Below, one piece after another: positions 9,114 through 63,178 of a DNA stretch of 63,178 nucleotides. Each line of letters begins with the position of its first letter. The stretch's first letter is position 1. Position numbers and translations under genes: made by a program. Origin of the DNA: Planctomycetota bacterium (GTDB taxonomy: Bacteria > Planctomycetota > Phycisphaerae > Phycisphaerales > SM1A02); assembly GCA_027618565.1 (NCBI GenBank), contig JAQCEQ010000011.1, positions 1-63,178 of the forward strand, in the 5' to 3' direction. The notes under the pieces are model-generated. The model had not been told where the DNA came from and ran no database searches. It was given only the letters and a program-made list of their open reading frames with translations.

Positions 9114-9967
9114 AACTCGTCAATCAGGGAGAAGACCGTGTCGGGCGTCTCCGTGACGCTGAAGTAGATGTTGGCATCGCTTGTCCGAAGGACAATGCGA
9201 TTGGCGCCTTCGTCCAGGCTGGCGTGGAGGCTGTCGCCGTCGTTGCGAGAATCCCGAAGCAGCCACCGACCGATCTTGACCCGCGAGTAGACGCTGCCAC
9301 CCACCGTCTCGGCATCGATATGCCCTCTTGATCCAGGAGCCAGGCGCACCTCAATGGGCGAATCGCTGGTCACCAGCGTCATTGGCTCCACGATCGCGCG
9401 CCTGGAGATGAATCGGCACGTGCCCTGCGTGGTTTCCACGGCGCAGCCGTGGTCGGACTCGCGGATGTCCACATGGCCGCGCGTGGTCGTGATGTTGGCG
9501 GCGCCAAGTTGCGAGACCTCCAGTTCAATGTCCACGCGCTGGAACCACGGCTCCTCGTGAGAAGTCGTGCAGTCGATGGTGAGCAGGAACCGCCCCGGGA
9601 GCACTTCGCGCAGTTCGTGGCGAATCGTGATGTCCGCCAGCGATGCTTCGGCTTCGTCGTCTCGACCAAAGCCGTGAATCGCCCGGCGGGTGATGGACAG
9701 GGAACCGCCCTTGGTGCCACCCTCACCGTGGCGGCCGCGCAGCACCACATCGCCGGCAAAGTTGTGGACCTGGACATCGATCGGCTCGAAGATGTCGATG
9801 GACAGCTGCTCGGATGTCGATTCGTGACCCCGAAACACCTCATGAAACGGCGTGACGACGGTCTTGAGCAGGCCTGGCTGCGGGGCAGACGGAGTTCCGC
9901 AGCCGCTGCCGAGGGCCATCGCGATCGCAGCGATGAAGGCGGCGGCGGCGAGGGGTGTGGAACGCAC
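9110..9967 (-). CDS. Lipoprotein with DUF4097-like beta-repeat region
   Basis: A 285-residue probable lipoprotein. A basic start and hydrophobic segment are followed by ALGSGC, a lipobox with Cys23. The remainder consists of short beta strands and turns (SIDIFEPIDVQVHNFAGDVVLRG..., then repeated ...TTRGHVDI, ...TTQGTCRF, ...TSDSPIEV), which resembles the DUF4097-type putative adhesin or beta-solenoid repeats. It starts at GTG 9967 with a TAGACT hexamer 6 nt upstream. It is coupled to the following hydrolase-like gene by a GTGA overlap, so the two are probably made together. Binding partner unknown. Confidence 0.6.
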   Translation of the reverse strand: MRSTPLAAAAFIAAIAMALGSGCGTPSAPQPGLLKTVVTPFHEVFRGHESTSEQLSIDIFEPIDVQVHNFAGDVVLRGRHGEGGTKGGSLSITRRAIHGFGRDDEAEASLADITIRHELREVLPGRFLLTIDCTTSHEEPWFQRVDIELEVSQLGAANITTTRGHVDIRESDHGCAVETTQGTCRFISRRAIVEPMTLVTSDSPIEVRLAPGSRGHIDAETVGGSVYSRVKIGRWLLRDSRNDGDSLHASLDEGANRIVLRTSDANIYFSVTETPDTVFSLIDEL

Positions 9968-37668: not shown

Positions 37669-38667
37669 CTAGACCGCCGCTGGCAAGGTCTCCAGGATGT
37701 TTTCCACGACCGAGTCCGTGGTCACCCCCTCGGCCTCACCTTCAAAGTTGAGCAGGCAGCGATGCCGGAGCGCGGGGAGCGCAGCGGAGCGCAAGTCCTC
37801 CGGTACCACCTGGGTCCGCCCGGCGAGCAGCGCCTTCACTTTCCCAGCGAGCACGATCGTTTGCGCCGCGCGGGGGCTGGCGCCAAACCGGAAGTAGGTG
37901 TTGACGCGGGGCGTCGCGAACTGCCCCTTGGGGTGCGTGGCCAGCACCAGGCGCGCGGCGTAGTCCTGCGTGGAGGCGTCGATGCGCACCGCACGTACCA
38001 GGCGCTGGTACTGAAGGATCGTGGGTCCATCCATCACGCGCTGAATGTTCGGCGAGTACCCGGTGGTGGTGCGCTGCAAGATCTCCGCCAGCTCCTCGCG
38101 CGTGGAGTAGCCGACCTCCAGCTTGAAGAAGAATCGATCCAGCTGCGCCTCGGGCAGCGGGTAGGTGCCTTCCTGTTCGATGGGGTTCTGCGTGGCCATC
38201 ACGAAGAATGGCTTCTCCAGGATGTGCGTCGTTCCGCCCACGGTGACGGTCCGCTCTTGCATTGCCTCCAACAGCGCCGACTGTGTCTTGGGGGTGGCTC
38301 GATTGATCTCGTCGGCCAGCACGATCTGCGAGAAGATCGGCCCCTGGCGAAACTGGAAGTCGCGACCGTGTTCGCTCTCCACCACGATGGTCGTGCCCGT
38401 GACATCCGCGGGCATGAGGTCTGGCGTGAACTGGATGCGACTGAAGTGGAGCGAGAGCGCCTCGGAGAGTGATCGAATCAACAGAGTCTTCCCCAGTCCC
38501 GGCACGCCTTCCAGGAGCGCGTGTCCGTTGGCAAAGAGGCAGATCAGCACGCCGTCGACGATCTCCCGGTGCCCGACGACTGCCTTGGCAATCTCTGAGC
38601 GCACCTTCTCGAAGTCACGCGGAAACTGTGCAACGAGCGCCTCGGCCGTCACGGTTGCTGTGGACAT
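37669..38667 (-). CDS. MoxR-family AAA+ ATPase
   Basis: A 332-residue MoxR ATPase, a chaperone-like AAA+ protein that matures or activates other proteins, often with VWA-domain partners. Walker A is GVPGLGKT (residues 54-61), Walker B is VLADEINRA (about 136-144), and the sensor 1 segment reads FVMATQNPIEQEGTYPLPEAQLDRF. MoxR genes usually precede DUF58 and VWA genes; here the downstream neighbour on the same strand is the lone HATPase gene, with no VWA gene in sight. Confidence 0.93.
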   Translation of the reverse strand: MSTATVTAEALVAQFPRDFEKVRSEIAKAVVGHREIVDGVLICLFANGHALLEGVPGLGKTLLIRSLSEALSLHFSRIQFTPDLMPADVTGTTIVVESEHGRDFQFRQGPIFSQIVLADEINRATPKTQSALLEAMQERTVTVGGTTHILEKPFFVMATQNPIEQEGTYPLPEAQLDRFFFKLEVGYSTREELAEILQRTTTGYSPNIQRVMDGPTILQYQRLVRAVRIDASTQDYAARLVLATHPKGQFATPRVNTYFRFGASPRAAQTIVLAGKVKALLAGRTQVVPEDLRSAALPALRHRCLLNFEGEAEGVTTDSVVENILETLPAAV

Positions 38668-38681: not shown

Positions 38682-38721
38682 GTTCGGTCGCCCCCCAGTT
38701 GCGCGCACCGCGCTATGCCCA

Positions 38722-38870
38722 TAGAGTCCCACCCGCTGGCGCGCGCCAGCCCCTCCCCGGACGGAGGAACGCGGTGCAAATCCGCGACGAACGCGTCACC
38801 GTATGTCGCTCGTGGGCTTCCAAGCTCAACGCAGCGACGAGTCGGGTCGACCGCCCGGACGAGGGACCAT
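38722..38870 (+). promoter_or_regulatory. Cobalamin (B12) riboswitch aptamer
   Basis: The conserved core is visible: GGAA, then GGTGCAAATCC (38773-38783), then ACGCGTCACCGT in place of the usual CCCGCNACTGT (38791-38802). A paired arm GTCGCT/AGCGAC (38805-38810 with 38833-38838) follows, and GTCGGGTCGACC stands where GTCAGNANACC is expected (38841-38852). Between the aptamer and the start codon a GACCC/GGGTC hairpin precedes the Shine-Dalgarno AGGAG (38906-38910, 9 nt before ATG), which suggests control at translation. Boundaries are approximate. Confidence 0.8.
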
Positions 38871-38919
38871 TCGCCTTGCTGACCCCGCGAACGGGTCGGC
38901 CCATCAGGAGTCCCATTTC

Positions 38920-39483
38920 ATGTCAGTTTCGTTTCACCCCGTTGCTGCGATTGCGGCATGCCTTGTCGCCGCACCGTCGCTTGCCGGCATCGTCGACACC
39001 TACAGCGTTGGCACTGGCCAGTTCCACTCGTCCGTCCAGATCGACTTCTCCACCGGCGACGGCTATCTCTTCGATGTCGCTTGGAGCGGCTCCGCGACCG
39101 GGATGGACCTCCTGCAGATCATCGACGACGCGATGGATGCCAGCGCGTTCCAGCTGGTGACCGACGACTTTGGCTGGGGCGCATTCGTCTCGGGCCTCGG
39201 CGTGGGCGATTCCTACGAGTACGGCACCGGTGACTTTTGGCCGGATGTCGAGAACTACTGGCACTATTGGATCGACGACGGCACTGGCGCTGGCTGGGAG
39301 AGCAGTTGGAGCGGCGCCAGCGATCGCATGGCGTTGGACGGCAGCCACGACGGCTGGGTGTTCATCCTGCCCGATGCGCCCCAGAGTGTGCCGGCGCCTG
39401 CGGCCGGGGCCATCGCGCTGTTGTGCGGCGGCTCGGAGGCATGCTCCCGTCGTCGCCGCCGCCCGCCCGCACTCACCCCTTGA
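38920..39483 (+). CDS. PEP-CTERM-like secreted protein under a B12 riboswitch
   Basis: A 187-residue exported protein. A signal peptide (about residues 1-23, ending SLAGI) precedes a compact acidic and aromatic domain of about 125 residues. Notable segments in it are [55 protein letters not shown] and DGSHDGWVF. The C-terminus is [15 protein letters not shown] followed by RRRRR, a PEP-CTERM-like sorting signal with VPAP in place of VPEP. A cobalamin riboswitch upstream ties expression to B12 status, so a role in capturing B12 or a corrinoid at the surface is plausible but inferred. Its stop overlaps the convergent clpP gene by 11 bp. Confidence 0.75.
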
Positions 39484-40147
39484 GCGGCAGTTGCTCGACG
39501 ATCTTGTCGATCAGCCCGTACTCCAGCATCTGCTCGGCGGTGAGCCAGGTGTTGCGCTCGCAAGTCTTGGCGATGTCCTCATACGACTTCCCCGTCTGCC
39601 GCGCGTAGATGCCGTAGAGCTGGTCGCGCATGCGCAGGATGTGTCGCGCCTCGATCTCCAGGTCCGTGGCCTGTCCCTCCAGCACGCCCGCCAAGAGAGG
39701 CTGGTGCATGAGGTTCTCCGCATGTGGCAGCGCAGATCGATATCCCTTGGCGCCGCTGCAGGCGATGACGCTCCCCATCGATGCGGCCTGGCCGATGACA
39801 TAGGTAGCCACCGGGCAGGGCACGAAATTCATCGTGTCCACGACCGCCAGCCCCGCCGTGACGCTGCCGCCTGGCGAGTTGACATAAATGGAGATAGGAG
39901 CCTTGGCATCCTCGTTGGCCAGGAAGAGCATTTGCGCCACGACCAAGTTGGCCATGTGGTCGCTGATGCCTCCTGTAATGAAAATGATCCGGTCGGCGAG
40001 GAGCCGGCTGTAGATGTCGTAGGCGCGCTCGCCGCGGCCGGTCTTCTCGATCACGATGGGAATGAGGGTCATGCCGCTCTCGTCTTCGTCTTCGTCTTCG
40101 TGGCTGTGGGGAAAGGAAGCAGGATGGGGAGTGCCAGACATCATCAT
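39473..40147 (-). CDS. clpP: ClpP-type protease subunit with Asn in the triad
   Basis: A 224-residue ClpP paralogue. An acidic leader ([12 protein letters not shown], about 14-25) precedes the ClpP domain. Ser123 is in [11 protein letters not shown] and His148 in LMHQP. The Asp normally found in an ERD motif is Asn199 ([11 protein letters not shown]). ClpP forms two stacked heptamers that degrade proteins delivered by ClpX or ClpA. The ATG overlaps the upstream clpP stop (ATGA; three consecutive ATG codons make the exact start ambiguous), so both subunits are made together and may form a mixed barrel. Confidence 0.92.
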
Positions 40148-40815
40148 TTCTTCGACTTGTCCGGAAAGGTGGCGATCTCGTCGACCAGACCGTAGGCCTT
40201 CGCCTCCTCCGCCGTGAAGAACTTGTCGCGCTCGCCGTCCTCCGCGATGCGCTCCACCGATTGCCCGGTGTGCCGCGCGAGGATCTCGTTGAGGAGCCGC
40301 TTGGCCTTGACGATCTGGTCGGCCTGGATCTGGATGTCGGTGGTCTGGCCAGTCACGCCGCCCAGCGGCTGGTGGATCATGATCTTGGCGTGCGGCAGGA
40401 TGACGCGCTTGCCCTTCTGCCCCGCGCACATGAGCACCGCGCCGCCGGAGTACGCGCGCCCAATGCAGTAGGTGAACACCTCGCTAGAGATGAACTGCAT
40501 GGTGTCGTACACCGCCAGCGTGTCGTCCACGGCGCCGCCTGGCGAGTTGATGTAGAGGTTGATGTCCTGCCCACGCTTCTGGTTCTCCAGGTAGAGCATC
40601 TGCATCATCACCCGAGCCGCGCTGCCGGAGTGGATCTCGCCGATGAGGAAGATGACCCGGTTCTCCAGGAGGAGTTCGTCGATCGTCATCTCGCGCGTGC
40701 GCTGGTACGACACGGAGTTCAACACCGGCACGGGCAAGCCGGCCGCAAGAAGATTGTCGCTCGTGGCGGGCAGGAGTCCAGCGTTGCCAAGGCCGTGCGG
40801 GTTCGCCAGTGTCAT
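40144..40815 (-). CDS. clpP: ClpP-type protease subunit with full Ser-His-Asp triad
   Basis: A 223-residue ClpP. Ser123 lies in [11 protein letters not shown], His148 in IMIHQPLGG and Asp197 in [12 protein letters not shown], so the triad is complete, though the elbow reads YSGG where ASMG is usual. Residues 1-45 are a leader that is probably processed or disordered. It is first in the two-gene clp unit. No clpX or clpA gene is adjacent in the window. Confidence 0.93.
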
Positions 40816-40824
40816 GGGGGCGCA

Positions 40825-40830
40825 ACGATA
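40825..40830 (-). promoter_or_regulatory. Probable -10 element of the clpP pair
   Basis: TATCGT on the minus strand ends 9 nt before ATG 40815. A loose -35-like TCGACG lies about 18 nt further upstream. Confidence 0.45.
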
Positions 40831-40834
40831 GCGG

Positions 40835-41917
40835 TTACCGGAACTTTTCGTCGACGACTCCCGGATCCAGCGCTTCCGGCCCACTCGTCTCGTCCGGATC
40901 AGACTCGGGTCGACCCGTTGGCAACCACAGCACGAACCGCGCGCCATCGGTGTGGTCTCGATCCCACTCCACATCACCGCCATGCGCCTGGGCGATGTGC
41001 TGCGTCACCGCCAGCCCCAACCCCGAACCTCGCTGCCCCTTGGTGGACGCGAAGGGCCGAAACAGCAACGGCGCGATGCTTGGATCCACGCCGCCGCCGT
41101 TGTCTTCCACGGCGATGAATGCACGGGGCGTGGCCGGTGGTGAATCATCATGTCCACCCCAAACCCCCACGACTATCCGCACACTCCCAGTCTTTGCCGG
41201 CGCCGCCTCGATCGCGTTGAGCAGCAGATTGAGGACCGCATGGTGGATCGATGACTGGTCTGCCCACACATCCTGTGGCGCCTGTTCCACCACCACCGCG
41301 AGCGACACGCCGCGAGCGTCCGCGGAGCCACGAGCCAACGCGACCGCGTCACGCACGACCTCACCAAGCAAGACCCCCACCAGGTCCAGTGTCCGTGGTC
41401 GAGCCAACGCCAGGAGATTCAGGCTCAGCGCGTAGATGCGATCCAGGTTCCTGGACACCAGTGGCCAGCCGCGACGCGCCAGGTCCAGGTCGCCTCGATC
41501 GAGCGCCATCTGAATCGTGTCCGTTCCGCCGCGAAGGCCTTGGAGGATGTTCTTGATGCTGTGCGCCAGCGCGGGCACCGCGTCGGCGGGCGCAGGTTCG
41601 ACGGGTGCGATCCCCGGCGATGCCTCCGCTTCTTTATAGAGGTACTCCGTCGTCCCGCACCGGATGAGGTTTCCCGCGAGCAGCCGGACCGATGCGAGCA
41701 GCCGACGACCCTGCACCATCGTCCCGTGCCGGCTGGCCAGGTCGCGGATCGACCATCCCCCATCCAATTCCGGCGTGAGTTCCGCGTGCCGACGGCTGAC
41801 GGAACGATCTGTCGACCGGATCGCCTCAGAACTCCGGCCGATCAGCTGGGGCTCTCCCGCGGGGAGCGCCACAACCTGCCCCGCATCCGGTCCTGCGATG
41901 ACGACGAGGTGTGCCAT
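40835..41917 (-). CDS. FHA-domain histidine kinase
   Basis: A 360-residue soluble kinase. The N-terminal ~100 residues are an FHA phosphothreonine-binding domain (GRSSEAIRSTDRSVSRRHAEL, then WSIRDLASRHGTMVQGRRL). The H box with phospho-His is ALAHSIKNILQGLRGG. The catalytic domain shows the N box LNLLLNAIEAAP, G1 VEDNGGGVD, the F box FRPFAST and G2 GSGLGLAV. There is no transmembrane segment and no adjacent response regulator, so it is an orphan kinase whose input is probably a phosphothreonine protein. It is divergent from holA, 37 bp away. Confidence 0.9.
   Translation of the reverse strand: MAHLVVIAGPDAGQVVALPAGEPQLIGRSSEAIRSTDRSVSRRHAELTPELDGGWSIRDLASRHGTMVQGRRLLASVRLLAGNLIRCGTTEYLYKEAEASPGIAPVEPAPADAVPALAHSIKNILQGLRGGTDTIQMALDRGDLDLARRGWPLVSRNLDRIYALSLNLLALARPRTLDLVGVLLGEVVRDAVALARGSADARGVSLAVVVEQAPQDVWADQSSIHHAVLNLLLNAIEAAPAKTGSVRIVVGVWGGHDDSPPATPRAFIAVEDNGGGVDPSIAPLLFRPFASTKGQRGSGLGLAVTQHIAQAHGGDVEWDRDHTDGARFVLWLPTGRPESDPDETSGPEALDPGVVDEKFR

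Positions 41918-61790: not shown

Positions 61791-63178
<1,388 letters not shown>

Follow-up and report, generated by a model that had tools for sequence, protein, structure and literature searches.

A secreted bacterial protein with a predicted vitamin B12-carrier fold, probably a corrinoid-capture protein, is encoded behind a divergent cobalamin riboswitch in a Phycisphaerales genome

We analyzed a 63,178-nucleotide stretch of DNA (hereafter the window) from contig JAQCEQ010000011.1 of a Planctomycetota bacterium (assembly GCA_027618565.1). The window contains a gene for a 187-amino-acid secreted protein preceded by elements of a cobalamin-type riboswitch. The features are as follows.

38757 to 38858, + strand: divergent cobalamin (AdoCbl-type) riboswitch aptamer (RF01482, 36.0 bits, E = 3.4e-5)
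38771 to 38802, + strand: aptamer core with P4, L5 and P5, where L5 is GAACGCG (29 aligned cores)
38840 to 38846, + strand: AGTCGGG box, the 3' part of the cobalamin core (read in the sequence and aligned to RF01482)
38878 to 38900, + strand: L13-type hairpin of the putative expression platform, GCTGACCC / CGCGAAC (loop) / GGGTCGGC
38907 to 38910, + strand: Shine-Dalgarno element GGAG, 9 nt upstream of the ATG (read in the sequence)
38920 to 39483, + strand: gene for the 187-amino-acid secreted protein (translation; conserved among relatives)
38920 to 38985, + strand: signal peptide, residues 1-22 (by eye: hydrophobic core and SLA at the cut)
38998 to 39363, + strand: domain with the predicted intrinsic factor/transcobalamin beta-domain fold, presumed to bind corrinoids (profile, 1.0e-31; AlphaFold2 model)
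39388 to 39462, + strand: PEP-CTERM-like sorting signal, VPAP-hydrophobic stretch-RRRRR (motif positions; alignment with relatives)

The true start codon is the ATG at 38920, the ATG at 38803 being merely the mechanical start of the open reading frame; the coding part runs from 38920 to 39480 and the stop codon occupies 39481-39483. The domain is rich in acidic residues, Trp and Tyr. The gene stands alone between a MoxR gene (37669-38667, − strand) and two ClpP genes (39473-40983, − strand), none of which is a B12 gene. The frames of the two neighbouring ClpP genes overlap, and at the end of the window a 16S rRNA gene (61791-63178, + strand) is truncated by the contig end.

The first-pass annotation had proposed that the protein is anchored by a PEP-CTERM signal. 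By eye, the expected architecture of signal peptide, VPxP, hydrophobic helix and basic tail is present. Among relatives, the C-termini of 6 of the 14 members of set A1 matched TIGR02595 and 6 of 14 matched PF07589 at E ≤ 0.1, and the genome encodes an exosortase (PF09721, E = 6.7e-40). The sorting-signal call therefore draws on the form of the motif, the aligned relatives and the genomic exosortase, but the window protein itself has no listed match to PF07589 or TIGR02595 (maximum E of 10, with HMMER filters that drop most matches above 0.1). At E ≤ 10 Pfam listed only DUF5070 (E = 0.95) for the window protein, and no NCBIfam family scored over its cut-off. We also considered the B12-binding jelly roll DUF4465 (BtuJ-type), whose members bind B12 according to the accessible text of PMC13398666; no Pfam match to it was found in the window protein or in the family members scanned.

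At curated Rfam cut-offs, 16S rRNA alone was listed in the window and no riboswitch. When E-values were reported, the RF01482 match reached 36.0 bits against a cut-off of 50, which bears out the earlier proposal of a B12-riboswitch core before the gene, though below threshold. The covariance check suggested with that proposal, against RF00174, returned a match at 38766-38851 (E = 0.0059), but its 19.8 bits lie under the cut-off of 31.5; this was the sole RF00174 match reported at E ≤ 10 in the 2.26-Mb genome. Guanidine-III and HOTTIP matches in the window were under their own cut-offs (E = 9.2) and were dropped. The window RNA resembles the AdoCbl (RF01482) and cobalamin (RF00174) riboswitches in its GGTGNAANTCC-type P4, P5/L5, CACCGT, AGTCGGG box and L13-type hairpin. 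It differs from them in L5 and L13, which are those of a clade variant, mostly GAA[C/G]GCG with CGCG or CGCT loops.

From sequences of the window's clade we built a regular expression for the variant core (GGTG-AA-TCC...GAANGCG...CACCGT), which matched 21 of 58 upstream regions (the window and 20 of 57 relatives) and none of 8088 random 453-nt stretches. It overlooks loci L004 and L057, whose cores were found by eye. AGTCGGG or AGCCGGG occurs downstream of 18 of the 21 variant cores. The alignment of 29 cores, 25 of them distinct, showed P4 and P5 paired in 175 of 175 cells (100%). Two P4 pairs (5 cells) were altered on both sides, from G-C to A-U in 3 sequences and from C-G to U-A in 2. None of 500 shuffles reached the covariation score of the core, while 32 of 500 matched its number of both-side-changed pairs and 258 of 500 its number of pair types. 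A control in which the partners were slid by +3 also gave 2 both-side-changed pairs, but only 64.6% of its cells were paired. The minimum free energy fold of 38710-38922 does not stand out from shuffled sequences of the same composition (z = -1.09), 31 of 200 of which were at least as stable, and the riboswitch claim thus rests on homology rather than on stability. Judged by sequence homology, the window RNA is a real but divergent cobalamin riboswitch variant, and its low Rfam score may mean that the models do not cover the variant of this clade.

Kissing of L5 with L13 is a feature of cobalamin and AdoCbl riboswitches. In 27 non-duplicate cores, for which the hairpin loop was required to begin with CGC, base 4 of L5 and base 4 of the loop formed C-G in 11, G-T in 11 and other combinations in 5; since these cores are related sequences, the independent change events are few. 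The first-pass annotation had described a hairpin overlapping the Shine-Dalgarno region. A hairpin does lie directly upstream of that element, but it stops 6 nt short of it and the two do not overlap. Translational control by the L13-type hairpin near the Shine-Dalgarno element is plausible from this arrangement. We consider it improbable that the riboswitch is decaying in this genome and has ceased to switch, leaving the protein as a constitutive relic. Such decay would fit the scores below both curated cut-offs and a BtuH-like/pseudopilin locus of the same genome at which no riboswitch was detected (see below). Against it, the variant core is also found in close relatives, its P4/P5 pairing is kept in 25 of 25 distinct sequences with compensatory changes in P4, and changes in L5 tend to be matched in the L13 loop.

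The association of this riboswitch type with the gene is conserved. A first contig scan with the single window protein as query found no relative. When 392 genomes of the phylum were searched with the same protein, 19 had a match, its own genome among them. Among the 18 other matched genomes, RF00174 was over cut-off upstream of 9 matches, a sub-threshold cobalamin-type match lay upstream of 4 more, and a variant core was read by eye upstream of L004. Three matches (L012, L016 and L017) were judged by eye to be non-relatives, and L010 is a partial relative. No riboswitch was detected upstream of the planctomycete relative L019.

In named species, the motif [SA][DN]G[DSA]WDGW picked out 106 stretches, of which tblastn confirmed 53 (the 53 loci); the five genes of the seed alignment all bear riboswitches, and at least 6 of the loci are shared with the 392-genome search. 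Their record titles, some of which may be wrong for metagenome-assembled genomes, name Planctomycetota, Verrucomicrobiota, Kiritimatiellae, Armatimonadota, Desulfobulbus, Desulfosarcina, Bacteroidales, Myxococcota, Chloroflexaceae and others. The earlier note had held that homologues consistently lacking the riboswitch and lying in B12-independent contexts would speak against its reading; instead, 48 of the 53 loci have a cobalamin-type riboswitch upstream in the same direction, and in some phyla the gene lies beside B12-uptake genes. Of 50 genomes, in which positions were inferred from contig coordinates, 23 have an RF00174 match on the gene's strand no more than 1 kb before it (19 of these over cut-off), and in 16 of the 50 the genome's single RF00174 match is sited there. 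A rescan of L030, L033 and L065 placed the match over cut-off in L033 and L065 and below it in L030. The near-upstream total of 38 comprises these 23, 13 variant cores, L057 (by eye) and L023 (the same as L011). In ten further loci (L031, L035, L038, L039, L042, L043, L044, L046, L051 and L072), a riboswitch over cut-off with the same orientation stands farther upstream, separated from the family gene by other genes. No cobalamin riboswitch was counted for L026 (at a contig edge), L028, L037, L054 or L060 (where the contig begins within the preceding gene).

Two of these loci carry riboswitches of another class. In Desulfobulbus elongatus, the stretch directly upstream of the family gene (131-841) holds a c-di-GMP-I riboswitch (L026:1-59), truncated at the contig end, in the place that the cobalamin riboswitch occupies in relatives. 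In Desulfosarcina (L028), c-di-GMP-I (9398-9482) and cobalamin (9573-9814) riboswitches stand in tandem before a PEP-CTERM-like gene and a second domain copy that looks broken by eye. Tandem riboswitches are treated in PMC12452182, and c-di-GMP riboswitches upstream of PEP-CTERM genes are already known, according to the accessible parts of that paper and of PMC12530212, respectively.

A survey of Phycisphaerae for the same pairing, as the first-pass annotation had advised, gave a concordant answer. A domain-only profile detected the family in 111 of the 397 genomes searched in the class; for the window's taxonomic family, its own genome included, the figure was 23 of 32. Per-genome counts gave 117 places in the class, and a cobalamin-type riboswitch lies upstream in 30 of the best 30 of these. 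L094, the gene of the window, belongs to this set, as do at least 7 genes met in the other searches. The variant core precedes 17 of the 30, and an Rfam cobalamin-type match precedes 13 (10 over cut-off, 3 sub-threshold).

Searches of PDB sequences with the single protein and with a profile found no family for the domain; weak profile matches to a nanobody, to Kirola and to a galactose-binding-like protein were taken as chance. An AlphaFold2 model of the region encoded by 38986-39402, built from an alignment with 47 relatives, reached a pLDDT of 93.1 and a pTM of 0.88. The best 16 Foldseek matches in the PDB (probability 1.00, at modest E-values of 6e-4 to 0.017) were transcobalamin, haptocorrin, intrinsic factor and 3u7z. 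The same four made up the 15 best VIA-align entries, all at Z ≥ 11.7: human intrinsic factor 2pmv (Z 13.6, rmsd 2.1, 105 residues), haptocorrin (4kki, 13.2), transcobalamin (12.0-13.0, with 2bb6 at 12.9) and 3u7z (11.7), which bears the title of a putative metal-binding protein. The next other fold, that of ubiquitin-like proteins, followed at Z 6.8. Alignments to the B12 carriers covered 100-105 residues at 2.0-2.5 Å and 12-14% identity, over model residues 9-129. Conserved positions of the window protein include Y113-W117, W126, R136 and D140-W146. In the animal proteins the alignment falls on the C-terminal region (about 290-427), which is called "beta domain" in the titles of 5no0 and 5np4, the latter reading "Beta domain of human transcobalamin bound to cyanocobalamin". 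The transcobalamin-like fold suggested at first pass was therefore recovered by structure prediction, and the domain is predicted to have the beta-domain fold of transcobalamin and intrinsic factor. In animal B12 carriers, an alpha/alpha toroid and the beta-domain are joined in one protein. The likeness of the window protein to intrinsic factor, transcobalamin and haptocorrin is one of predicted fold (Z 12.0-13.6); in contrast to them, it is bacterial and stand-alone, has a PEP-CTERM-like tail and lacks the toroid.

The companion suggestion of DUF4430 (PF14478), the Pfam family of this beta-domain, found no footing in sequence. Pfam gave no PF14478 match for the window protein at E ≤ 10, and hhalign to one DUF4430 protein returned a probability of 38.5%. 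The model was over cut-off in none of 45 family genomes (covering 45 of the 53 loci), with one weak match in L082. According to the accessible text of PMC4350170, DUF4430 lies at the C-terminus of TCN proteins. The SCO2322 family (NF040672) gave a weak HMM match to the YWHYW...DGW half of the domain (E = 3.9e-4), at 20.8 bits against a cut-off of 85, and by the NCBI criterion the window protein is a non-member. Profile-profile comparison with two SCO2322-like proteins of a Chloroflexaceae riboswitch-ECF operon, one of which (L072:7974-8525) is itself among the 53 loci, gave a probability of 96.1% (E = 3.3e-9) over 107 columns. By such comparison the domain is kin to SCO2322-like proteins, but its tail and neighbours differ from theirs. 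Among the matches listed in a search of the open-access literature on SCO2322 and cobalamin, SCO2322 did not appear.

In some phyla, the domain is accompanied by cobalamin-uptake genes. At Bacteroidales locus L038 the order is riboswitch, BtuB (2.4e-133 to 8blw_A), BtuG (2.6e-42), BtuH (9.8e-78 to 8blw_B and 2.4e-46 to 7biz) and a 1784-amino-acid protein with the domain at its start. Homologues of BtuB, BtuG and BtuH also lie upstream of the domain in L039, L042 and L044; the L039 protein joins it to a DUF5074/BtuG propeller and Big_2 repeats, the L044 protein to LRR_5 repeats. In Bacteroides, BtuG, BtuH, BtuJ and BtuK1 are riboswitch-controlled surface lipoproteins that bind B12, and the genes for BtuG, BtuH and BtuJ adjoin BtuB, as described in the accessible parts of PMC6143338, PMC8941943 and PMC12751083. 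The window-type domain resembles BtuG, BtuH and BtuJ in that it sits in such gene clusters in Bacteroidales. It differs from them in fold (propeller, BtuH domain and jelly roll, respectively), and the Bacteroides proteins have a lipid anchor, whereas the window protein has a PEP-CTERM-like tail and comes from a genome in which no TonB plug was found. The Chloroflexaceae operon (L072:5214-11579) consists of a riboswitch, a squalene-cyclase-like toroid (SCO2321-like), the domain, a second SCO2322-like protein, an ECF S component and CbiQ. The alpha/alpha toroid and the beta-domain are here separate neighbouring genes.

Two further neighbours recur in the other phyla. A partner protein of about 340 amino acids is found at 16 of the 53 loci, with 17 of 17 copies on the same strand. 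Where scanned, Pfam lists dockerin or PEP-CTERM tails for it at most. Its structural model (pLDDT 92.0) is closest to BtuH (7biz_A, Z 13.6) and BtuG1 (8blw_B, 12.8), with the next entry at 10.0. An hmmsearch of PDB sequences with the partner profile found no BtuH, and hhalign to Bacteroidales BtuH gave 96.2% over 68 columns. The partner is thus BtuH-like both in its modelled fold and in its profile. By eye, the domain seems to be fused to a BtuH-like domain and a dockerin-like tail in two genes (L014:1417-2706 and L018:661-1950), both behind a cobalamin riboswitch. A pseudopilin-like neighbour is present at 20 loci and shares the strand of the gene in 19 of 20 copies; all seven scanned have an N_methyl match. 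The density of prepilin motifs close to the gene (up to 2.3 kb away) is 0.071 per kb on its own strand and 0.0037 on the other; the remaining parts of the loci have 0.0024 per kb per strand. The pseudopilin-like proteins often carry the motif GDGxWxGGANKFMRxP.

These neighbours bear on what the protein does. It could be regulated by B12 and yet bind no corrinoid, for example as an adhesin or a protein of the exopolysaccharide layer that keeps the cell near B12 producers. PEP-CTERM proteins have been linked to exopolysaccharide-associated sorting (Haft 2006, as cited in the accessible text of PMC12530212), and the c-di-GMP-I riboswitch directly before the Desulfobulbus gene is a biofilm-type control, as an adhesin might have. 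We nevertheless hold this to be unlikely, as the predicted fold is that of B12 carriers and, in some phyla, the domain occurs together with BtuB, BtuG, BtuH or ECF parts or in a fusion with them. Least probable of all is that the beta-grasp-like fold binds another ligand, such as a metal or a corrinoid degradation product, with the riboswitch reporting a linked need: a common fold does not prove function, and 3u7z is close to the model, but the link to cobalamin-type riboswitches is conserved and is joined in some phyla by cobalamin-uptake genes.

The gene content of the host fits a protein that captures corrinoids. The genome (2.26 Mb, 96.8% complete) encodes MetH (7.5e-275), in a frame that is cut by the end of the locus and scores below the NCBI cut-off for the whole protein. 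An IcmF-like frame (L076:763-1983, − strand, contig C17) combines a mutase-type B12-binding domain with a MeaB-like GTPase, and there is a third B12-binding domain. Neither CobS nor a TonB plug was found at E ≤ 0.01. One set of Peripla_BP_2, FecCD and ABC ATPase resembles BtuFCD, in families that NCBIfam cannot separate into B12, siderophore or heme types. The host appears to depend on outside vitamin B12. A second locus of its genome (L113:542-2664, − strand, contig C34) holds a BtuH-like gene (E = 2.8e-39, hhalign 99.8%) directly followed by a gene 32% identical to the pseudopilin-like protein of L061. Neither gene of this pair has a Pfam match listed at E ≤ 0.001, and the sole NCBIfam entry is a GspG match, below threshold, to the second gene. 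Thus, the domain and the BtuH-like and pseudopilin-like parts are all present in this genome, across two loci. No riboswitch was detected at the C34 locus, which argues against a simple single-regulon picture.

Taken with the conserved riboswitch linkage and the B12-uptake neighbours of some relatives, the predicted fold makes it likely that the window gene encodes a secreted, probably surface-anchored, stand-alone corrinoid-capture protein under B12-riboswitch control. With adenosylcobalamin plentiful, the aptamer would close, L5 would kiss the L13 hairpin before the Shine-Dalgarno element and translation would be blocked; when B12 is scarce, the switch would open and the protein would be made. 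The signal peptide would export the protein and the exosortase would process its PEP-CTERM-like tail. Outside the cell, the beta-domain-like fold would then bind corrinoids and raise their local concentration for uptake. The FecCD-type importer would take them into the cell, where the imported B12 would serve MetH and probably an IcmF-type mutase. Corrinoid binding, the placement at the surface, the sense in which B12 regulates the gene and the transfer to the importer are inferred steps of this scheme.

The recurrence of the pseudopilin neighbour suggests a pilus-like helper in passage across the outer membrane. A pseudopilin-assisted uptake route is possible and speculative. In its wider form, this idea describes a B12-riboswitch-controlled corrinoid-uptake apparatus of Planctomycetota, Armatimonadota, Verrucomicrobiota and others. 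PEP-CTERM-anchored transcobalamin-like and BtuH-like domains would capture corrinoids at the surface, and, with no TonB-dependent receptor involved, a dedicated pseudopilin of a type II/IV-pilus-like machine would carry or hand them across the outer membrane. We regard this wider form as doubtful. In searches of the open-access literature, no paper came up that dealt with a transcobalamin-like domain in a bacterial PEP-CTERM protein, with a role of pseudopilins in B12 uptake, or with cobalamin riboswitches and corrinoids in Planctomycetes. PMC12530212 alone paired a cobalamin riboswitch with PEP-CTERM, and in its accessible text the two are unrelated.

These results indicate that a cobalamin-riboswitch variant exists that the Rfam cut-offs miss. 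They place BtuH-like proteins outside the range reported in the accessible part of PMC8941943, in which BtuH is described as having no known structural homologue and as occurring in gut Bacteroidetes and three Firmicutes among 313 gut species. The pseudopilin-like protein becomes a new candidate part of vitamin uptake. More broadly, the conserved linkage and the predicted fold suggest a widespread bacterial B12-capture family with the fold of vertebrate B12 carriers, present in at least one organism in whose genome no TonB plug was found, and a bacterial stand-alone beta-domain of this kind bears on the origin of the beta-domain of the animal B12 carriers.
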